Made by a program: the position numbers and the translations under genes. From Desulfonatronum sp. (GTDB lineage Bacteria > Desulfobacterota > Desulfovibrionia > Desulfovibrionales > Desulfonatronaceae), in NCBI GenBank assembly GCA_011049455.1, contig DSBL01000104.1, positions 1 to 63,604 of the forward strand: a DNA stretch of 63,604 bases, given 5' to 3'. Below are positions 49,555 to 59,588 of the stretch, piece by piece. The notes beneath the pieces were generated by a model, which saw nothing but the letters and a program-made list of their open reading frames with translations, had not been told where the DNA came from and made no database searches. The stretch's first letter is position 1, and every line of letters starts with the position of its first letter.

Positions 49555-51105
49555 TTATCTGACTCGCTTGTTCAAATCCCACATCAGCTCGGCCTCGGGC
49601 AACAGCGGCAGATAACCCAGCCATTGATGGGAATCCAAATGGGCTTGGCTTTGCTGGAGTTTGCGGCTGTGTTCCATGATGGGCGGGACAATCTGCTTGA
49701 TGTCTCCTTCCAAATACGGACCAATGACGTAATTTGTGGCCTGCATGGCGAAATTCACCGCCTCCTGGCTGTACTGCTGCGACCTGGCCAAAGTTTCCAG
49801 TGCCTTGGCCGGATTATGAAACCCGGCACTGTTTTCCGCGGACACCAGATCCCAGAAAAACTGGCTCTTGCGGATCATCTGCCGCGCTTGGATCATCAGG
49901 TCGTCATAGTTTCCCGGCCTGTCCCCCCGAAATTCCCTGGCCAACCGCACTGCCTCATGGGCTCTGACGGAAAAATCCTGGGCAGTCATCAACTGCTCCC
50001 AAACCCGTTTCTGGGTAAACAGCACCCGCTCCTTGAGGTATTCCGGCTGCTTGTCCATATGGCACTGACGGCAGGCCCGGTTGATGCCGTCCACGCTTTT
50101 CAAAGGCGAGGTCCATTGGTGCTGGGAAATTTTCTTTTTCCCGTCGATCCGAATGTAGGGCATGTGGCAGTCGGCGCAGGCCACTCCGGCGGCGCCGTGC
50201 ACCCCGTTGATCCAGAATTCGAATTCCGGGTGCTGGGCTTTGAGCATCGGGGTATCGGACACCGCATGGGTCCAATCGATGAAATTGTTTTCAAAGCCCG
50301 GTCTCGTGGTAGAGCCGTGGTCCTTGTAGTATTCATACATGTCTTCCGGATCAAACCCATTGGTCCAGGGAAAGATGGGCTTGGCCGCGGCCCCGAGCTT
50401 GGCTTCCTGGAAATAATACTCCACGTGGCACTGTCCACAGACATAGGACCGCATCTCGTTGCGCGAGGCCTGTTTCCAGTCGATGCCCAACGTGATCAGG
50501 GCTTCGTTGAAAGGAATACCGGTGATACGCAAATCCATGGTTTCCGGATCATGGCACACGGCACATCCGATGCTGTGATCGTCCAGGTCGATTTCCTCGC
50601 GGAAATTGTTGAATTCCATGGCCCAGACGTCGTCCCCGTATTTGCCGTGCCATTCAACGATTTTCGGCCCCTTGCAGTTGTAGCAGGTGGTGGGCAGCTC
50701 ACCCTTTTCGCCGTAGCGGTTCACGCGGTCGATGTCCAAAACGTCGTGCATGGCATAGGTGTGACCGCGGGCCCGGTTGTACTCGAAGCTGAAGGGATAG
50801 CCCATCCACAAATTCTTCAAGTAGGGCTGGCAGTACTTGTATCCCCGGGGCAGGTCCCCGCACAGATGCTTTTCATGGGGCACGGACCCGGCGTATTCGG
50901 TCATCTGGGAATCGTCGTTGTTCAAGAGGTAGCTGGCGTAATGCAGAGGCAGAAACTCCTCGAAGGCGCTGGTTTTGATTTCCGTGGACTTCAGCGTGGT
51001 CTTGTAGGACGGTGTTACCGGCTCCGGGACTTCAGTGCAGCTGAACAAGACTGCAGTGCCCACCATCAAAGCCACGGCCAAAATGAATGGAACCCATCTA
51101 CTCAT
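49555..51105 (-). CDS. nrfA: Cytochrome c nitrite reductase, catalytic subunit NrfA
   Basis: A 516-residue pentahaem enzyme reducing nitrite to ammonium with six electrons; it can also reduce NO and hydroxylamine. The catalytic haem motif is TCYNCK (Lys ligand). Four further CxxCH motifs are visible: GCAVCH, CGQCH, CADCH and CRQCH. Calcium and active-site segments such as WTHAVSDTPMLKAQHPE are present. The export signal ends in LFSC, so it may be a lipoprotein instead of a cleaved soluble form. AGGAGGG precedes the ATG, which overlaps nrfH by eight bases. Confidence 0.95.
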   Translation of the reverse strand: MSRWVPFILAVALMVGTAVLFSCTEVPEPVTPSYKTTLKSTEIKTSAFEEFLPLHYASYLLNNDDSQMTEYAGSVPHEKHLCGDLPRGYKYCQPYLKNLWMGYPFSFEYNRARGHTYAMHDVLDIDRVNRYGEKGELPTTCYNCKGPKIVEWHGKYGDDVWAMEFNNFREEIDLDDHSIGCAVCHDPETMDLRITGIPFNEALITLGIDWKQASRNEMRSYVCGQCHVEYYFQEAKLGAAAKPIFPWTNGFDPEDMYEYYKDHGSTTRPGFENNFIDWTHAVSDTPMLKAQHPEFEFWINGVHGAAGVACADCHMPYIRIDGKKKISQHQWTSPLKSVDGINRACRQCHMDKQPEYLKERVLFTQKRVWEQLMTAQDFSVRAHEAVRLAREFRGDRPGNYDDLMIQARQMIRKSQFFWDLVSAENSAGFHNPAKALETLARSQQYSQEAVNFAMQATNYVIGPYLEGDIKQIVPPIMEHSRKLQQSQAHLDSHQWLGYLPLLPEAELMWDLNKRVR

Positions 51106-51571
51106 CAGCCACCCTCCTATGAGCAATAGACAGTTTGGACATATGCGGCACCGACCGGTGACAATCCGTACAGTACTCCTTGGCCTCGGCCACACCCTCG
51201 GCGACATTGATGGTGGTCATCGCGTGACACCGTGAACAGTTGTCGTTGACCACCTGCTTGGTGCTGTCCGAGGCATGGATCACGTCGTACACGTTGCCCA
51301 AGGTGTTTATGAACATGTCCTTGGCCCCGGATTTGGATTTGTAGATCATCTTCGTGGGCAACTGATGCGGAATGTGACATTCGTTGCAGGCCTGCTTGGC
51401 ATGGCCGGACATCTGGTGAGTGCGTACGGCCTCGTACATCACGTGGCACGAACCGCAAAACTCGGGCTCGTCAGTGGCCTTCATGGAAAAAGCAAAACCT
51501 GCGTACAGCAAGGCTCCTACAAGGAGCAGAAACAACACCGCTGCCCTGCTTTTGCGTGCCTTTCGTACCAT
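51098..51571 (-). CDS. nrfH: NrfH, membrane tetrahaem quinol dehydrogenase for NrfA
   Basis: A 157-residue NapC/NrfH cytochrome passing electrons from menaquinol to NrfA. One N-terminal membrane helix (AAVLFLLLVGALLYAGFAF) anchors it, and four haem motifs follow: CGSCHVM (the Met-ligated first haem), CNECH, CSRCH and CTDCH. AGGAGGTGA lies upstream of the ATG at 51571. It has its own promoter about 70 bases away. Order nrfH-nrfA is the usual one. Confidence 0.95.
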   Translation of the reverse strand: MVRKARKSRAAVLFLLLVGALLYAGFAFSMKATDEPEFCGSCHVMYEAVRTHQMSGHAKQACNECHIPHQLPTKMIYKSKSGAKDMFINTLGNVYDVIHASDSTKQVVNDNCSRCHAMTTINVAEGVAEAKEYCTDCHRSVPHMSKLSIAHRRVADE

Positions 51572-51637: not shown

Positions 51638-51666
51638 ACTTTATGAAAAGTCTGAAAGAAAGTCAA
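51638..51666 (-). promoter_or_regulatory. Promoter of nrfHA
   Basis: Read leftward, TTGACT (51666-51661) and TAAAGT (51643-51638) are 17 bases apart in an AT-rich stretch, about 67 bases before nrfH. A TTGTT-N6-AACAA dyad (51613-51628) lies just downstream. Confidence 0.55.
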
Positions 51667-51782
51667 AAACAAAGTATCTGAGCCGTGATCTTTGAGGGCA
51701 ACAGAAGCCCGGTTCATGGAGCGATACAGCGTGGAAACATTCAAGCAACTCGTGTTTGTCCAGAAATAAGCCGCATGAATAC

Positions 51783-51800
51783 GACCGCCCCTGGGCGGTC
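51783..51800 (-). terminator. Second hairpin downstream of hcp
   Basis: GACCGCCC and GGGCGGTC form a compact GC stem with a two- to four-base loop, four bases beyond the main hcp terminator. It has no long T-run and probably strengthens termination. Confidence 0.5.
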
Positions 51801-51803
51801 TTC

Positions 51804-51830
51804 AAAATGGGGGGCAGGGCCCCCCATTTT
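51804..51830 (-). terminator. Terminator of hcp
   Basis: AAAATGGGGGGC (51804-51815) is perfectly complementary to GCCCCCCATTTT (51819-51830) around a three-base loop. It starts nine bases after the hcp stop; the A/T flanks of the stem act as the T-tract on either strand. Confidence 0.85.
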
Positions 51831-51838
51831 CAAACACT

Positions 51839-53506
51839 CTATTTTCCGGCCATCATGGCCGCGATATCCTCTTGCACCGTGCCGATGGGCTTGATGTCGA
51901 ACTTTTCCACCAGGACCTTGGCCACGTTGGGAGAGAGAAACGCGGGCAGGGTCGGGCCCAGGCGGATGCCCTTCACACCCAAAAAGAGCAGGGCCAAAAG
52001 CACGGCCACGGCCTTTTGCTCATACCAAGCGATATCGTAGGACACGGGCAGTTCGTTGATGTCCTCCAGACCGAACACTTCCTTCAGTTTCAAAGCGATC
52101 ACGGCCAGGGAGTAGGAATCATTGCACTGCCCGGCGTCCAAAACCCGGGGAATGCCGCCGATGTCGCCCAGATTCAGCTTGTTGTAGCGGTACTTGGCGC
52201 AGCCGGCCGTGAGGATGACCGTGTCCTTGGGCAGGTTCTCGGCCACTTCGGTATAGTAGCTGCGGCTTTTCTGGCGGCCGTCGCACCCGGCCATGACCAC
52301 GAAGCGCTTGATGGCCCCGGATTTGACCGCGTCCACGACCTTGTCGGCCAGGGCCAGAACCTGATGGTGGGCAAAACCGCCGGTGATGCTCCCGGTCTCA
52401 ATTTCCTTGGGCGGCGGACAGGTGTTGGCCTGGGCGATGAGCGCTGAAAAGTCCTTTTTGCCGCCGGCCGGACGGTCGGGAATGTGCTTGCTCCCCGGAT
52501 ATCCGACAACGCCGGTGGTGTAGAGCCGGTCCAGATAGGTGTTGTTTTTCTTCAGGGGCACCAGGCAGTTGGTGGTCAACAGAATCGGGCCGTTGAAGGA
52601 CTCGAATTCCTCGTTCTGATGCCACCAGGATCCGCCGTAGTTGCCCACGAAGTGCTTGTACTTCTTGAAGGCCGGGTAGTAGTTGGCCGGAAGCATCTCG
52701 CCGTGGGTGTAGACGTCCACGCCCGTGCCCTCGGTCTGCTGAAGCAGCTCTTCCATATCCTTCAAATCGTGGCCGCTGATCAGGATGCCCGGGTTTGTGC
52801 CCACGCCGATGTTCACCTGGGTGATCTCCGGGTTGCCGTAGGTGGAGGTGTTGGCCTCGTCCAGCAGGGCCATGGTGGTCACGGCGGTTTGGCCGGCCTT
52901 CATGACCAGGGCGATCATCTCGTCCACGGGCAGATCCTTGGTGGTGGAGGCCAGGGCCTCGAGCATGAAATCATCGATCTCGGGCTTGCGAAAACCCAGC
53001 ACCGCGGCATGCTCGGCATAGGCGGCAATGCCCTTCAGGCCGATGATCAGCAGCTCGCGCAAGGACCGCACGTCCTCGTGCTCCGTAGCCAGAATGCCCA
53101 CGCTCTTGGCCTTTTCGGCAAAAGCGGAAACAGGGCCGCTCCAGGTGGCCGCCTCGGGCAGGGTCTCGGCAAAGTCCTTTTTGTGCTTGGCCTTGTATGC
53201 GGCCAAAAACGTGGTCCTGAGCTGGTCACGCCGGACCAGGCCGTCCTGGATCATGGCCTCGAAACGGGCGTCGTCCCAGTTGGCGTTGGTGATGGTGGCG
53301 AACAGGCCCTGGAGCACGAAATCGTCATTGCTGTGATCCGGCTGGCCCAGCTCTTTGAGTTTTTCGCCGTACACGGCGATGCCGCGGAGCACGAAAATCA
53401 GCAGATCCTGCAAATTCGCTGTTTCCTCGGGCTTGCCGCACATCCCCTTGACCGTGCAGCCGACGTTCTTGGCGGTTTCCTGACATTGAAAACAAAACAT
53501 GGACAT
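51839..53506 (-). CDS. hcp: Hybrid cluster protein (hydroxylamine / NO reductase)
   Basis: A 555-residue class I Hcp. The N terminus [19 protein letters not shown] plus GMCGK carries the cubane cluster cysteines. Hybrid-cluster ligands are found in the later segments [13 protein letters not shown] (His), TTNCLVPLK (Cys), [17 protein letters not shown] (Cys) and [10 protein letters not shown] (Cys). The sequence resembles Desulfovibrio Hcp almost throughout, from memory. Hcp reduces hydroxylamine in vitro and NO in vivo, protecting anaerobes from nitrosative stress. AGGAGG precedes the ATG at 53506, and a CRP/FNR-type dyad lies 80 bases upstream. Confidence 0.96.
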
Positions 53507-53581
53507 GATTGACCTCCTGGTGGCTAGATGAATTTTTTGTCGAACACGCCCGTAATATTTCCTAAATTTTTGAACATTGCC

Positions 53582-53595
53582 TTGACCTATGTCAA
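53582..53595 (-). promoter_or_regulatory. CRP/FNR-family operator upstream of hcp
   Basis: TTGAC-CTAT-GTCAA is a perfect five-base-arm dyad with four-base spacer, the geometry of FNR-family sites. Its centre lies about 43 bases before the start site expected from the TATTAC -10-like sequence, a class II activator position. HcpR, the CRP/FNR regulator of hcp in sulfate reducers, is the natural candidate. Confidence 0.6.
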
Positions 53596-53704
53596 AAAGC
53601 AAAACACATCCTGTCATCCAACCCCCTGCCCACGATGCTGCCGCGTGATGGACTCGGCCGGCGCATCCGATCCCATCCGATACTTCTCTTATGGCATTGA
53701 AATT

Positions 53705-53765
53705 GGTATCGGAATCCGCTTCGGGGTCATGTCATGTACCCCCGAACGATTTCGTTCCCGATACC
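53705..53765. repeat. Nested inverted repeats between ferredoxin and hcp
   Basis: GGTATCGG (53705-53712) pairs with CCGATACC (53758-53765). Inside, TTCGGGG (53720-53726) pairs with CCCCGAA (53740-53746). Together they can form a long structured element of about 60 bases; function unknown. Confidence 0.5.
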
Positions 53766-53823
53766 GATCCCGGGAGCAACTCTGATTCGCCTCGAAGTGC
53801 GTCATTTTGATCGTCATGGGGCA

Positions 53824-54018
53824 TTATTCTTCCCAGGAAATGCACTCCACCGGACAATTGTCCATGGCTTCCTGGATCTTCTCCTCGGGTCCCCCCTCGG
53901 GTTCGATCACTTCGGCCTTGCCGGCGTCTTCATCCAGTCGAAACACTTCCGGACAAAGTTCAGCGCAATTTCCGCAACCAATACATTCATCCCAGTCTAT
54001 TACAACCTTGCGTGCCAT
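53824..54018 (-). CDS. Small [4Fe-4S] ferredoxin
   Basis: A 64-residue ferredoxin with a single cluster motif CIGCGNCAELCP plus a distal CPVEC, and an acidic C terminus. AAGGAGGAG precedes the ATG. Third gene of a leftward iron-sulfur/cupin/ferredoxin series and directly upstream of hcp; it resembles the frdX-like ferredoxins that accompany hcp and may be its electron donor (inference). Confidence 0.88.
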   Translation of the reverse strand: MARKVVIDWDECIGCGNCAELCPEVFRLDEDAGKAEVIEPEGGPEEKIQEAMDNCPVECISWEE

Positions 54019-54077
54019 GACACTCCTCCTTGCTGGATTCGGTTTTTCAAACTCTAGCCATCTGATTTCACCAAATC

Positions 54078-54392
54078 TTAAATGGGCGGGGCAATGGTCA
54101 CCAGCGTGCGCATGTCCGTGGCAGCCTTTATCCCGTGTGGCACGGCAATATCGCAGACCAGCACGTCGCCGGCTTTGGCAGGCAGGGTCCCGTCCTTGGC
54201 CAGGAACTCGCCCTCGCCTTCCAGAATGAGGATGGAGAGCTGGCCTTCGAGGTCATGCGAATGAATGGGAAGTTGCTGTCCCGCCCGAAAGTTAAAGTTC
54301 AGAATCTTGAAATAGGGTGAGTCGTGAACCAGAAATTTTTTCAGACCCAGATCGTTGAACCCATTGGCTTCAAAAAGATTGACTTTTTTCAT
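54078..54392 (-). CDS. Small cupin-domain protein
   Basis: A 104-residue single-domain cupin. The motifs appear as GQQLPIHSHDLEGQLSILILEGEGEF and GDVLVCDIAVPHGIKA, supplying His ligands for a metal. The substrate is unknown. It lies between an Fe-S protein (69 bases upstream) and a ferredoxin (59 bases downstream), all probably on one transcript. A sensor or small-molecule (NO or thiol) handling role is speculative. Confidence 0.82.
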   Translation of the reverse strand: MKKVNLFEANGFNDLGLKKFLVHDSPYFKILNFNFRAGQQLPIHSHDLEGQLSILILEGEGEFLAKDGTLPAKAGDVLVCDIAVPHGIKAATDMRTLVTIAPPI

Positions 54393-54461
54393 CAGACAAC
54401 TCCTTGTGATTTTATGGTGTTTGGTTCAAGGCAGGAAATCTTGCAAGACGAAAAGAACCTC

Positions 54462-55235
54462 TTACAGCGTCTTGAGGCCTCGGGCCTCGGGCATGATGTC
54501 GCCCTGCCTGGAAACAACGACTTCTTTGAATGGAATCCGCACTCCGGCCTTTGCCATGGATTGGACGACAATGTCCGCCAGTCCCGAGCAGCAGGGCACC
54601 TCCATGGACAGGACCGTGACGCTGCTGATCCCGGCCTGTTGAAAAATTTCCGTGAAACGCCGCGAATAATCCTGCACATCGTCAAACTTCGGGCAGCCCA
54701 TCAGGATTATTTTTCCCGGAAGCAGCTCCTGGTGCAACAGGGGATAGGCCACCGGAGCGCAATCTGCGGCCACCAACAACTCAGCGCCCTTGAGAAACGG
54801 GGCTTCAGGAGGCACCAACCGGATCTGCACCGGCCAGTGCGTCAAGGCCGATCCTCCCTCGCCGTTAGCCGAAGCAACAGGCCGTAAAGAGGCCGGAGCG
54901 AACGTGGACATGGCCGTTCCCGGACAGCCGCAGCCGAGGTTCGGCAAGGCCCTGTTCTGTAAAGCCCGGGCCTTTTCCGCGGCTATGAACTTGTTCATCC
55001 TGTCTTCCACGGCTGCAGCATCAAAGACCTCGGCTTCGCGCTGGACCATGGTGATGGCACCCTTGGGGCACTCGCCCAGGCAGGCGCCCAGGCCGTCGCA
55101 GTATTTCTCGGCCACCAGCCGGGCTTTGCCCTCCCGGACTTCAATGGCCCCTTCAGCGCACCCGGGCACGCACAGTCCGCACCCGTCGCACAAGTCTTCG
55201 TCAATATGAACGATGTCCCGCTTTGTTTTGATCAT
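54462..55235 (-). CDS. 4Fe-4S protein associated with hcp regulon
   Basis: A 257-residue protein. Two 4Fe-4S motifs at the N terminus (CDGCGLCVPGC and CDGLGACLGECP) are followed by a linker with GCGCPG. A C-terminal domain holds MGCPKFDD and a CCSGLADIVVQSM segment with more cysteines. Such two-cluster proteins are often encoded beside hcp and ferredoxin in anaerobes; the reaction is not known. The FNR-type dyad at 55331-55344 lies about 100 bases upstream, pointing to shared control with hcp. Confidence 0.8.
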   Translation of the reverse strand: MIKTKRDIVHIDEDLCDGCGLCVPGCAEGAIEVREGKARLVAEKYCDGLGACLGECPKGAITMVQREAEVFDAAAVEDRMNKFIAAEKARALQNRALPNLGCGCPGTAMSTFAPASLRPVASANGEGGSALTHWPVQIRLVPPEAPFLKGAELLVAADCAPVAYPLLHQELLPGKIILMGCPKFDDVQDYSRRFTEIFQQAGISSVTVLSMEVPCCSGLADIVVQSMAKAGVRIPFKEVVVSRQGDIMPEARGLKTL

Positions 55236-55330
55236 GACTCAACACCCCCTGCTGAATGATGTGGGTAACGCGCCGGCAGTCCTTCATCCCTTGCGCGAGT
55301 CCCTTGTCGCATCTTTCCGTAAGCAGTGCA

Positions 55331-55344
55331 TTGACATGAATCAA
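55331..55344 (-). promoter_or_regulatory. CRP/FNR-family operator upstream of the Fe-S/cupin/ferredoxin operon
   Basis: TTGAC-ATGA-ATCAA has the same arm and spacer geometry as the hcp dyad, with one arm mismatch. It is 96 bases before the first gene. I could not identify a good -10. Confidence 0.5.
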
Positions 55345-55676: not shown

Positions 55677-56927
55677 TCAGTACAAAATCCCGACCACCGC
55701 CCCGGTCATCAACGTACTTAAAACGCCGGCCAGAATGGACCGAGGCCCCAGGGCCACGATTTCTTCGCCCCGCTGCGGGGCGATGCTGGAAAGCCCGCCG
55801 ATCAGGATGCCCAGGCTGCCGATGTTGGCAAAACCGCACAAGGCATAGGTCATGATCAGGGCGCTGCGTTCGGAAAGCGCGCCGGCAGGCAAAGCGGCCA
55901 GATCCAGATAGGCCAGCAATTCATTGAGTACAACCTTGACGCCCATCAGGCTGCCCGCTGTGCGGGCTTCATCCCAGGGGATTCCGGCCAGCCAGACCAG
56001 GGGGCTCATGATCCATCCCAAAATGCCCTGCAAGGTCAATGGCCGCCCGTCCGGATGCGGCAAAAATCCCAGCACCTGGTTGACCATGCTGACCAGCGCC
56101 ACCAGGACCACCAACAGGGCCACGACATTGATGAAAATTTTCACCCCGGACATGGTTCCTTGGACCAAAGCGTCCATGGAACTGCGGGTCTGTATGGGCG
56201 GAGCGATCTTGCCCAGCGTCAGCGGACCGCTTTCCGGGATCATCACTCCGGCGATGAGGATGGAAGCTGGTGCGCTGATCAGGGAGGCGGAAATAATGTG
56301 TCCCAGGGCATCCGGCACCACGGACCCGATGATGCCGGCGTAAAGCACCAGCACGGTCCCGGCGATGGTGGCCATGCCGCAGGTCATCAGGGTGAACAGT
56401 TCGCTGCGGGTCATGGATGAAATATAGGGCCGGATGAACAGCGGCGATTCGACCATGCCCGCGAATATGTTCGCCCCACACCCCACGCCAAGCGCTCCGC
56501 CGATGCCCATGGTCCGCTGCAGCACCGCGGAAAAGGCCTTGACCAGCATTGGAATGATCTTCCAGTGATACAGCAACGTGGTCAGGGCGCCGGTGACGAC
56601 AATCACGGGCAGGGCGCGAAAGGCGAAAATGTACCCCGCACCGGGAAACGGCTCTTCAAAGGGCAAAGGGCCGCCGCCTAGATAGCCGAACACGAAGCTC
56701 GTCCCGGCCCGGGTGCCCGTTTCCAGTGTTTTTACGACCTGGTTCAGCACCAGAAACACCTCTCCCAGGACCGGAACCTTCAGCAAGAACAAGGCCAGAA
56801 CCAATTGCAGAACAAGCCCAATGCCGATCAAACGCAGGCTCACGGCCCGGCGGTTCTCGGACAAAACCCAGGCAATGGCCACGAATGCCAACAAGCCGAA
56901 CGCGCTTTGCAGCATGGAAACAGGCAT
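55677..56927 (-). CDS. nupC: CNT-family (NupC) nucleoside transporter
   Basis: A 416-residue concentrative nucleoside transporter with 8-10 hydrophobic segments. Family segments include GTSFVFGYLGGGP, the GGALGVGCGANIFAGMVESPLFIRPYI stretch split by a turn, and CGFANIGSLGILIGGLSSIAP near the end; the first is the nucleoside/Na+ site region. It imports nucleosides with H+ or Na+. AAGGA precedes the ATG at 56927. It diverges from the 5'-nucleotidase, so nucleosides released outside could be taken up. Confidence 0.9.
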   Translation of the reverse strand: MPVSMLQSAFGLLAFVAIAWVLSENRRAVSLRLIGIGLVLQLVLALFLLKVPVLGEVFLVLNQVVKTLETGTRAGTSFVFGYLGGGPLPFEEPFPGAGYIFAFRALPVIVVTGALTTLLYHWKIIPMLVKAFSAVLQRTMGIGGALGVGCGANIFAGMVESPLFIRPYISSMTRSELFTLMTCGMATIAGTVLVLYAGIIGSVVPDALGHIISASLISAPASILIAGVMIPESGPLTLGKIAPPIQTRSSMDALVQGTMSGVKIFINVVALLVVLVALVSMVNQVLGFLPHPDGRPLTLQGILGWIMSPLVWLAGIPWDEARTAGSLMGVKVVLNELLAYLDLAALPAGALSERSALIMTYALCGFANIGSLGILIGGLSSIAPQRGEEIVALGPRSILAGVLSTLMTGAVVGILY

Positions 56928-57005
56928 GCGGATTGTCCTTGTTTTCTTGTGCCGAAAAAATTTTCGGATCGTTTCCCTGGGGTAAAACCCGCCAACCATC
57001 CAATA

Positions 57006-57204
57006 TTATTGCTTTTTAACCTTGAATTCTTTGGGCATTGCACCGGAAAGATCCGGCAAAGCGACCGGCACCACTCCAGGGATCAGGACATAACCGCGGC
57101 TCTTGATTTCGTCCAGCACGCGTGAAAAACAACAGGACTCCGTCATAGTCCTTTTTGCCTTGCACCCGGAAGTGGATGGCGACCTGAACGGCTGGCCTGG
57201 ACAT
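57006..57204 (-). pseudogene. Possible small frameshifted gene
   Basis: Read leftward, an ATG at 57204 opens a frame (MSRPAVQVAIHFRVQGKKDY, then DGVLLFFTR). A second frame shifted by one base continues in a protein-like way (VLDEIKSRGYVLIPGVVPV) and stops at 57006. The 199-base total is not a multiple of three. No family was recognised. A genuine frameshift mutation, a sequencing error or coincidence are all possible. Confidence 0.3.
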
Positions 57205-57569
57205 GGTGAACGGGCATTGCACTGCTGACCGATCTTGTCCTGTGCTGGTTAAACCAATGCCCAACGGTTTAACTTCATCTACGGCATCTTCAATGCATTG
57301 ATTTTGCCCGACGCAGGCAGCAAGGGAGTTTGCCTTATTGAATCAAATCCGTTGGTCACAGGCTGCGCTGTATTTTTCAGCGCCGCCGCAAATTTCCACA
57401 CCGGCTTCGGATACCCAAACGATTGCGCTTTTCGAACCAATTATTGCCGTGTATACACTGTGCAATCGCTTGGACTGACCAATCCCGGCTCGGTTTCTTG
57501 AATTCGTTTACTCGAAAACAGAACAGCCCCGGCATCGGCTTGCCAATTACCACCACCCAGGGAGCAACC
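57205..57569. other. Leader region of the 5'-nucleotidase
   Basis: About 365 bases with no supported gene. A 12-base palindrome TCAATGCATTGA lies near 57290, and TATACA (57452-57457) is a possible -10 without a clear -35. The final bases carry GGGAG six bases before the start codon. Confidence 0.4.
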
Positions 57570-59588
57570 ATGAAACAAAAGACATCTCCGACGGCATTTC
57601 CCGCAACTGCAATCGTTATTCCCCAGGTCCTGGGACAAGCTGTTGCGGCATGCCGCGGCACGGGGCCATACCGGGGTCTTGCCCGGGCATTCCTGTCTGT
57701 GCTGCTTGTTCTGGCCTTTCTTCTGGCCGGCCTGGCCGGATGCATGCATTCCAACAACGAACCGCGATTAATCCAGGCAGCATCCAACGGCGTTGAATCC
57801 TCTAAGGATCGTTTTGTGGTCTACATCGCCCATGTCAACGACACCCATGCCCATCTCGACCCAATCACGCGCTCATTTGCCCTGGACGGCCATACGGTTT
57901 CCATGTCCGTGGGCGGATATCCCCGGCTGCACACCCAGGTGGACGGATGGAGGAAAACGGCTGGCGACGAGCAGGCCGGATTCCTCTTTCTGCACGCCGG
58001 GGACACGTTCCAGGGGTCCGGCTATTTCATGCTTTTTTACGGCGAACCCGAGGCAGCAATGTGGAACCGCATCGGCCTGGACGCCATGGTCCTGGGCAAC
58101 CACGAGTTCGACTCCCTGCGGGCCATGGACATCCAGCGCGATGCGCAAGGGCGCATTCTTTCCGTAACCCCGGGAGAAGCACTGCCGGCCGGATTGAACC
58201 TGGCCGAATTCATCCGCCTGGCCCACTTCCCGGTCCTGGCGGCAAACATGCATGTTCCTGATTCTTCTCTCCTGTCCAACATTCCCAACCTGGTCCCGTG
58301 GGTCATCACGGAAGTGGAAGGCCGATCCGTTGGCATTTTCGGCATCGTCCTGGCCGACATGCCGGAAATTGCCTATCCGGGCAAGGAACTGATCTTCCTG
58401 CCCGAGGCCGACGTGGCCCGGGAGATGGTCTCTTTGTTCGAGGCGCAGGGCGTTGACCGGATCATCATGATCTCGCACATCGGCTATGAGCAGGACATGG
58501 AGATCGCCCGGTCCGTGGACGGCATCGACGTCATCGTGGGCGGGCATTCTCATTCCGTGCTGGGAGATTTCTCCCCGTCCGGTCTTGAAAGCGACGGACC
58601 GTATCCGACAATCATCGCCTCCCCCTCCGGCTGGCCCACCGTGGTCGTGCAGGCCGGGGCCTACGCATCCATGGCCGGATTGCTCCGGGTCGTTTTCAAC
58701 GACCAGGGCGAAGTGGTCCAGGCCGACGGGGCGAATCATTTCTTGATTCTCGCAAACCAGGGGGATGATCGCGAGGTTGATACGAAACGCGAGCAGGACT
58801 TGCCTCAGGAGACTGTGCTGGGCCAGGGCGCGGTCCTCTCCTGGGGCCGGGAAAACCCGCAGGATCGGGAATTCATTGATCAGCGCTACGGCAGGGACGT
58901 CAAGGAGGCATACGGTCCGGTGATCGCCATGGTTGCCCAGCCTTTGGATCATGAACGGATTCCCGCTGACCCGGCCGGCCACGGAAGTATTCTTGCGCCG
59001 TTGACTGCCGAGGCCCTGGCCGCTGGGCTGGCCTTGCAGGGCGAGGGCGTGGATTTTGCTCTGCTCAACGCGGGAAGCGTCAGGGCCTCAATCCCTGCCG
59101 GACCGTTTCGGGAGAATCAGACCATGCTGGAAATCATGATTTTCGGCAACAGGGTCGCGGCCTTTGCATTGACCGGAGCCCAGACCAGGGCGGTCCTGGA
59201 GTCGGTCATCTCCTCGGCCCTGGCCAACTCCCAGGACGACGGGCGCTTCCCGTACCCGGCGCGCCTGAAGTATTCCTACGATGCAGCCCAACCCGAGGGC
59301 GGCCGTCTTTCTGATCTGACCGTATGGGACCAAGAAATGGGCTGGCGGTCTTTGGAGGACGACCGGACCTACCGGGTCGCTTCCAGCTATTACATCGCTT
59401 CAGGGCGGGACGGCTACGATTTATTGAAACAGTACGTCGACGCCAATGCCTCCCTGCAGGTGTTCAGCGCCCTGGATAACCAGATGTTCGTGGATTATGT
59501 CCGGCAAACAGCCGCCCAGAACAACGGGTTCCTGCTTCCGCTGGACTACGCGCCCGTGACCTTGAAGAATCAGGTTCTGCAACGCTGA
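57570..59588 (+). CDS. 5'-nucleotidase / UshA-family lipoprotein
   Basis: A 672-residue exported metallophosphoesterase. The N terminus has an unusually long lead (about 40 residues) before a hydrophobic segment and lipobox LAGC (Cys58). The metallophosphatase domain has HVNDTHAHLD, HAGDTFQGS, GNHEFD and GGHSHS. The C-terminal nucleotidase domain has LLNAGSVRASI and a YIASGRDGYD substrate motif. It should dephosphorylate nucleotides (or UDP-sugars, cyclic nucleotides) outside the cytoplasm. It is divergent from the nucleoside transporter, and together they make an acquisition pair. Confidence 0.9.
   Translation: MKQKTSPTAFPATAIVIPQVLGQAVAACRGTGPYRGLARAFLSVLLVLAFLLAGLAGCMHSNNEPRLIQAASNGVESSKDRFVVYIAHVNDTHAHLDPITRSFALDGHTVSMSVGGYPRLHTQVDGWRKTAGDEQAGFLFLHAGDTFQGSGYFMLFYGEPEAAMWNRIGLDAMVLGNHEFDSLRAMDIQRDAQGRILSVTPGEALPAGLNLAEFIRLAHFPVLAANMHVPDSSLLSNIPNLVPWVITEVEGRSVGIFGIVLADMPEIAYPGKELIFLPEADVAREMVSLFEAQGVDRIIMISHIGYEQDMEIARSVDGIDVIVGGHSHSVLGDFSPSGLESDGPYPTIIASPSGWPTVVVQAGAYASMAGLLRVVFNDQGEVVQADGANHFLILANQGDDREVDTKREQDLPQETVLGQGAVLSWGRENPQDREFIDQRYGRDVKEAYGPVIAMVAQPLDHERIPADPAGHGSILAPLTAEALAAGLALQGEGVDFALLNAGSVRASIPAGPFRENQTMLEIMIFGNRVAAFALTGAQTRAVLESVISSALANSQDDGRFPYPARLKYSYDAAQPEGGRLSDLTVWDQEMGWRSLEDDRTYRVASSYYIASGRDGYDLLKQYVDANASLQVFSALDNQMFVDYVRQTAAQNNGFLLPLDYAPVTLKNQVLQR

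Follow-up and report, generated by a model that had tools for sequence, protein, structure and literature searches.

We analysed a 63,604-nucleotide stretch of Desulfonatronum sp. DNA (the window). The host assembly comprises 2.87 Mb in 164 contigs with a completeness of 95.2%, and its relatives are Desulfovibrionales-type genomes. On the minus strand, genes for an iron–sulfur (Fe-S) protein, a cupin and a small ferredoxin (fdx) are followed by hcp, nrfH and nrfA.

54462–55235, minus strand: Fe-S protein, 257 aa, with an N-terminal two-[4Fe-4S] ferredoxin domain and a C-terminal cysteine-bearing domain
54078–54392, minus strand: Cupin_2 protein, 104 aa, a close match to the solved chain 2q30_A
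53824–54018, minus strand: ferredoxin (fdx) of the single-[4Fe-4S] type, 64 aa, sharing 81% identity with the fdx 5' of hcp in congener G001
51839–53506, minus strand: hcp, hybrid cluster protein, 555 aa, recognised by domain models and placed by the tree within the clade of another family
51098–51571, minus strand: nrfH, without an HcpR dyad upstream
49555–51105, minus strand: nrfA, nitrite reductase, native by identity

The mechanical open reading frame of hcp starts at 53617, which is upstream of the dyad described below. The real start was placed at 53506 (MSMFCFQCQ), because the hydroxylamine-reductase model begins at residue 40 of the mechanical frame. Upstream of the Fe-S operon, NupC-type nucleoside transporter and 5'-nucleotidase-type genes lie head to head (55677–59588).

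A preliminary description of this DNA had reported similar dyads before hcp and before the Fe-S gene, with no further intergenic copy in the window. Both observations were confirmed. The forward-strand letters are TTGACCTATGTCAA at 53582–53595 and TTGACATGAATCAA at 55331–55344, each before its gene start, and the latter is one base away from a palindrome. In the whole window, TTGAYNNNNRTCAA was found only at these two places, and the other one-mismatch matches (30723 and 43746) were both within called genes. The elements of the two promoters are as follows.

53582–53595, minus strand: predicted HcpR-type operator of hcp, TTGACATAGGTCAA on the gene strand, centred at −82 from the start codon and homologous to congener hcp promoters
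53554–53559, minus strand: −10-like hexamer AATATT of hcp, 22 nt after the dyad, 4 of 6 matching, at the peak of the 71 promoters described below
53539–53547, minus strand: leader element GTGTTCGAC of hcp, 34 nt after the dyad, common to 6 of 8 congener hcp copies
55331–55344, minus strand: predicted HcpR-type operator of the Fe-S operon, TTGATTCATGTCAA on the gene strand, centred at −102 and present in all five congeners with the gene
55303–55308, minus strand: weak −10 candidate GACAAG of the Fe-S promoter (3 of 6), where congeners have CATACA or CATAAA

The pattern alone is weak evidence. With at most one mismatch, the window contained 4 matches against 1.49 expected, and 7 of 100 shuffles reached 4, which is not significant. 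When the two upstream stretches (317 and 441 bases, picked after the dyads had been seen) were dinucleotide-shuffled, a site appeared in 0.7% of 20,000 shuffles and both sites in 0 of 20,000. The whole-genome scan proposed in the preliminary description was performed. It gave 29 places with TTGAYNNNNRTCAA (24 + 5), or 28 distinct ones without one contig-end duplicate. Twenty-three of these were within called genes, 1 was in an uncalled ORF, 1 overlapped a gene end and one lay 166 bp before a gene. The remaining 2, which are the hcp and Fe-S dyads, lay in non-coding DNA, no more than 150 bp upstream of a called gene. The scan was indecisive, because about 1.8 such upstream places were expected by position alone (from a 6.4% share, in a site-biased sample). 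The exact dyad occurred at 5 places in the genome, of which only the hcp one was outside called genes. Genome-wide enrichment was thus rejected as proof of a regulon, with most matches intragenic and the upstream count not above expectation; it is cross-genome conservation that carries the regulon case.

Conservation was analysed at 110 Fe-S loci, 80 of them named (the best 80 kept out of 467 relatives) and 30 drawn from 41 genomes of the order. The two sets overlap; for example, L086 and L116 share one match. The loci contained hcp in 57/110 cases and an hcpR relative (at least 40% identity) in 35/110; among the best 80 named homologues, 60 had hcp or hcpR in the locus. The 300 bp upstream of each gene were scanned for TTGAC-N4-GTCAA, leaving out our own rows, matches starting after residue 20 and genes with fewer than 60 upstream bases. 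The exact dyad was found upstream of 31/45 hcp homologues, 18/35 hcpR genes and 8/109 Fe-S genes. With at most one mismatch, the counts rose to 42/45, 30/35 and 31/109, respectively. Among 59 controls with rearranged arms, the highest counts were 2, 2 and 4 (at most one mismatch, own rows included). Many Fe-S genes are expected to lack an operator of their own because they are inner genes of hcp-led operons. In the second set (41 order genomes), the exact dyad preceded 12/29 hcp (one hcp locus was too short to score), 3/22 cupin and 5/30 hcpR genes, and controls gave 0. Three further families of the order had cupin genes with their own upstream dyad (5/22 loci with at most one mismatch: L233, L234, L236, L237 and L241).

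Additional dyads were observed in congeners. Paired dyads about 55 bp apart were located at L172:2176-2241, L173:13858-13926, L174:7812-7881, L176:1495-1560 and L177:6931-7000. In L172 and L176 they separate a gene of 436–452 aa (Fer4_5-type in L172) from a gene for a sulfur transporter, which has TusA after it. By sequence, these pairs would indicate a larger HcpR regulon in the bigger congener genomes; the congener 436-aa protein had only a weak Fer4-region match in our genome. In congener G006, a small gene for a nitrite/sulfite reductase-like protein (NIR_SIR) has a dyad upstream (L181:3759-4567). A search of our genome with this protein, run without a positive control, gave no match.

The promoter geometry was analysed with 71 promoters, from which redundancy had been removed at 80% identity. 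The −10 matches were best at a single offset, 22 nt past the dyad, with a mean of 3.1 of 6. At this offset 44% of the promoters scored at least 4 of 6, and the next best offset reached 21%. The fixed offset therefore places the dyad centre at −41.5, where the dyad occupies the place of the −35 box. CRP/FNR activators of class II bind at this position. At the level of sequence, the dyads have the geometry of operators of a class II activator.

The preliminary description had also called for an HcpR gene. We found hcpR outside the window (G000:C20:21247-21924), encoding a protein of 225 aa with cNMP-binding and Crp-type HTH domains. An HTH_Crp_2 profile search of the genome gave only this protein above the Pfam cut-off, with a second match below it. 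HcpR contains no cysteine, as do 43 of 58 aligned homologues, and His74 is retained in 57/58. FNR requires cysteines for its [4Fe-4S] cluster. The protein is therefore not a [4Fe-4S] FNR, and classical FNR was rejected as the regulator. Its recognition helix is TTPETLSR, with P188, E189 and R193 (CRP numbering of the helix by eye); among the 58 homologues these positions are P in 46 and Q in 12, E in 58, and R in 58. The published motif of delta-proteobacterial HcpR is wyTTGACnnnnGTCAArw, accompanied by Pro or Ser180 and Glu181 (PMC1274295; PMC545781, Table 10), and the helix rule pairs Pro or Ser180, Glu181 and Arg185 with the TTGAC motif (PMC1274295). Our HcpR has the helix residues and the domain make-up of the delta-proteobacterial HcpR1 branch, and the hcp operator matches the published motif.

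In the HcpR1 branch, hcpR is frequently but not always a neighbour of hcp. The two genes are not adjacent in our genome (C20 versus C6), but they are in G002 and at many of the named loci. In G002, an 82% identical hcpR ortholog in the same gene neighbourhood is divergent from hcp, with CCTTGACCTGGATCAAAA in between. Our genome has CCTTGACCTGGATCATAA at −72 of hcpR, a one-base-decayed copy of the congener operator, and hcp is absent there. Because of this copy, weak autoregulation of hcpR is possible.

Motif, sole regulator, conservation and constant promoter geometry support the proposal that hcp and the Fe-S/cupin/ferredoxin operon belong to one HcpR regulon, and a common HcpR-type operator before both is well supported by sequence. 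We propose that HcpR, the sole recognisable CRP/FNR-family regulator of the genome, binds both dyads. As judged from published HcpR work, it would bind heme, and NO would displace the heme ligands. Active HcpR at −41.5 would recruit RNA polymerase for transcription of hcp, encoding an NO reductase, and at the second promoter for transcription of the Fe-S/cupin/ferredoxin operon. The Fe-S protein and the ferredoxin might then hand electrons to Hcp, and hcpR itself may be weakly autoregulated via the decayed operator. Heme and NO sensing by our HcpR is inferred by analogy with the HcpR of Porphyromonas gingivalis (as described in PMC12750200).

Other readings of the dyads were weighed. HcpR might act as a repressor released by NO, as in the published model for HcpR2 of D. 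desulfuricans 27774, which involves repression with an Fe-S cluster (PMC5701242). We consider this very unlikely here: in 71 promoters the −10 lies at class II activator distance and the dyad replaces the −35 box, and our regulator lacks the cysteines that an Fe-S cluster would need. In addition, matches to our HcpR in the f5/g10 genomes are weak (22–33%), so HcpR2 may be a different branch. A comparably small probability is given to the Fe-S dyad being a chance or Fur-like palindrome, with hcp as the sole HcpR target. That dyad does have one mismatch and a weak −10, and one-mismatch matches are common by chance in the window. Against this, all five congeners with the gene retain the TTGAYCCAKRTCAAGG dyad at −102 to −135, and Fe-S genes from the order's other families frequently carry dyads at about −50 to −70. 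Seven congeners were searched, of which G002 and G007 gave no close Fe-S match. Least probable is that the dyads are bound by another CRP/FNR protein (FNR, DNR or a second HcpR) absent from the assembly. Its completeness of about 95% and the overlap of FNR-type sites with the variant TTGAT-N4-ATCAA leave some room for such a protein, and D. desulfuricans is described as having five CRP/FNR factors (PMC5701242). Nevertheless, a single such gene was found, its helix fits the motif, and its ortholog in G002 shares an intergenic operator with hcp. Activation of both promoters by HcpR is thus preferred.

The descent of hcp differs from that of its surroundings. It was 87–91% identical to hcp of five g13 genomes (family f4) and 79–80% to that of G010 (f4), versus 41–47% to the hcp copies of seven congeners. 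In a tree of 50 rows, it fell inside the g13 clade with support 100/100. The DNA match to g13 hcp (84%) spans 53500–51838 and nothing beyond. Upstream, fdx resembles the G001 fdx that sits just upstream of hcp there, and nrfA was 72% identical to those of G001 and G003 versus 62% to that of G031, of the family nearest in hcp. The congener-type hcp promoter mostly reads CTTTTTGACATAG(G/A)TCAAGGC, followed by GTGTTCG(A/G)C 34 nt after the dyad (33 in one). This leader is present at our hcp and six of the eight congener copies, and is absent from L280 and L281. No dyad was found within 300 bp of hcp in the four of five g13 loci that could be scored. Our Hcp and congener Hcp begin with MxMFC, whereas g13 proteins start with MFC. 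The putative 5' junction lies at or near ATGTTTTGT, a 9-base identity common to our sequence, the congeners and 3 of 4 g13 sequences compared. GC3 of hcp gave no additional sign of foreign descent, and no second hcp was found in the assembly.

In the wider loci, a gene of 384–402 aa (flavodiiron-type by Pfam, one tested) precedes the two copies of G031 and that of G027, and an ABC-transporter-type region precedes the one in G019. At L274:15133-18023 (G031, f4/g13), a close hcp relative lies behind ABC-transporter-type and flavodiiron-type genes, without an HcpR dyad.

Judged from these sequences, the most likely history is that the coding sequence of hcp came from a different family within the order and took the place of the native gene, whose HcpR promoter was retained. 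An ancestor with both hcp types, of which our species retained type A and the congeners type B, would require no transfer. This is unlikely, even though G019, G027, G031 and G035 have both types and type-A hcp of other lineages is also found with dyads. Our hcp lies within the f4/g13 clade and is closer to it than is hcp of G010 of f4 (87–91% versus 77–80%), and its promoter and leader match the congeners' type-B gene. An assembly chimera of two organisms is less probable still. The assembly, in 164 contigs, may be a metagenome bin, and the 5' junction falls in the 9-base identity noted above. A chimera would nevertheless require the 63.6 kb contig to be broken precisely at two internal points, and the assembly has no other hcp. 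The preferred reading is an exchange in place. As the joint best explanation, it is very likely that HcpR operators at both dyads drive hcp and the Fe-S operon, with a foreign hcp behind a native promoter. The fuller version is also favoured, with less assurance: a foreign hcp was exchanged at or near the ATGTTTTGT start, leaving the native promoter and leader, fdx and nrfHA; the imported gene thereby came under HcpR control in one step; and the partner Fe-S protein may donate electrons to Hcp.

The preliminary description had suggested separate control of nitrite reductase. No HcpR dyad was found upstream of nrfH, where the best match within 300 bp has 3 mismatches. Two further features lie between hcp and nrfH.

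51779–51831, minus strand: hairpins in tandem directly behind hcp, likely to act as a terminator or attenuator ahead of nrfHA (51770–51845: −36.7 kcal/mol, z −4.2)
51638–51666, minus strand: promoter-like site TTGACT-17-TAAAGT before nrfH

Because of the hairpins, the promoter-like site and the lack of a dyad, nrfHA is probably a separate unit in our genome. In three other genomes nrfHA is downstream of a dyad-led hcp: in G001 and G003 with an inserted gene in between (an IS1595-type transposase in G003), and in G008 about 1 kb behind hcp. A single hcp-nrfHA transcription unit, colinear here and in these three genomes, appears less likely here. Geobacter-type nrfHA, an HcpR target, differs in having its own operator before nrfH. 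As for the fdx–hcp gap, it was rejected as a hairpin-forming repeat; a 101-base piece of it occurs once in the genome, and its fold was no better than those of shuffles.

The N-terminal domain of the Fe-S protein matched bacterial ferredoxins in structure. The C-terminal domain (54480–54854, minus strand) gave an alpha/beta model with a pLDDT of 91, and C159, C181, C215 and C216 are invariant across 61 sequences. No Pfam or NCBIfam model covered this domain. Searched alone against the PDB, it gave no Foldseek match at E up to 0.001; a second structural comparison reached a best Z of 6.6, within noise, and a PDB profile search gave nothing better than E 0.5. Beta-carbonic anhydrases and RecR appeared among the matches and are not claimed as fold relatives. 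The Fe-S protein with this undescribed cysteine-bearing domain accompanies hcp and hcpR in many delta-proteobacterial-type genomes. From this context we guess that it may supply Hcp with electrons.

Chain 2q30_A, which the cupin resembles, belongs to an uncharacterised protein. The preliminary description had added a cupin to the set, but a cupin was linked to hcp before: Ddes_1828 of D. desulfuricans lies next to hcp and is NO-induced with it according to Table 4 of PMC5701242, whose Figure 4 legend gives disagreeing locus tags. What may be new is the subfamily as an additional regulon member. In G016 (f5/g10), where the order is CRP-like gene, cupin, hcp, the cupin is 29% identical to ours and the CRP-like neighbour about 32% identical to our HcpR.

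The system is of the known HcpR regulon type, and its motif and helix rule are already published (PMC545781, PMC1274295). As in the delta-proteobacterial HcpR1 regulon described there, we found the operator TTGACnnnnGTCAA, the Pro-Glu residues, hcp and ferredoxin-type partner targets, and predicted positive control. FrdX, an hcp-linked ferredoxin-type protein, was reported beside hcp under HcpR control (Rodionov 2004, PMC545781). In contrast to the published regulon, here the Fe-S/cupin/fdx operon has its own operator, hcpR is not beside hcp, hcp appears to be of foreign descent and nrfHA lacks an operator. The hcpR2-cupin-hcp cluster of D. desulfuricans 27774 is alike in its NO-co-induced cupin and hcp and its CRP/FNR-family control, but its published model is repression via an Fe-S regulator, opposite in sign to the activation proposed here (PMC5701242). 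The heme sensor HcpR of P. gingivalis shares the CRP/FNR fold, the hcp target and the NO response (the last inferred for our protein), but has the heme ligand Met68 (PMC12750200) and a different DNA motif (PMC1274295). Enterobacterial FNR belongs to the same half-site family (TTGAT-N4-ATCAA), but has the cluster cysteines that our HcpR lacks. To this, our analysis adds the regulator in this genome, a second operator, the geometry of the promoters, a decayed operator at hcpR and a probable exchange of hcp in place.

These results make the regulon precise and testable, with its regulator, operators and promoter geometry defined, and provide a cross-genome data set of 71 promoters on class II activation by HcpR. 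With the Fe-S protein they also offer a conserved candidate for the donor of electrons to Hcp. If the exchange is true, an acquired enzyme was wired into the stress response of its new host by landing behind a native promoter.
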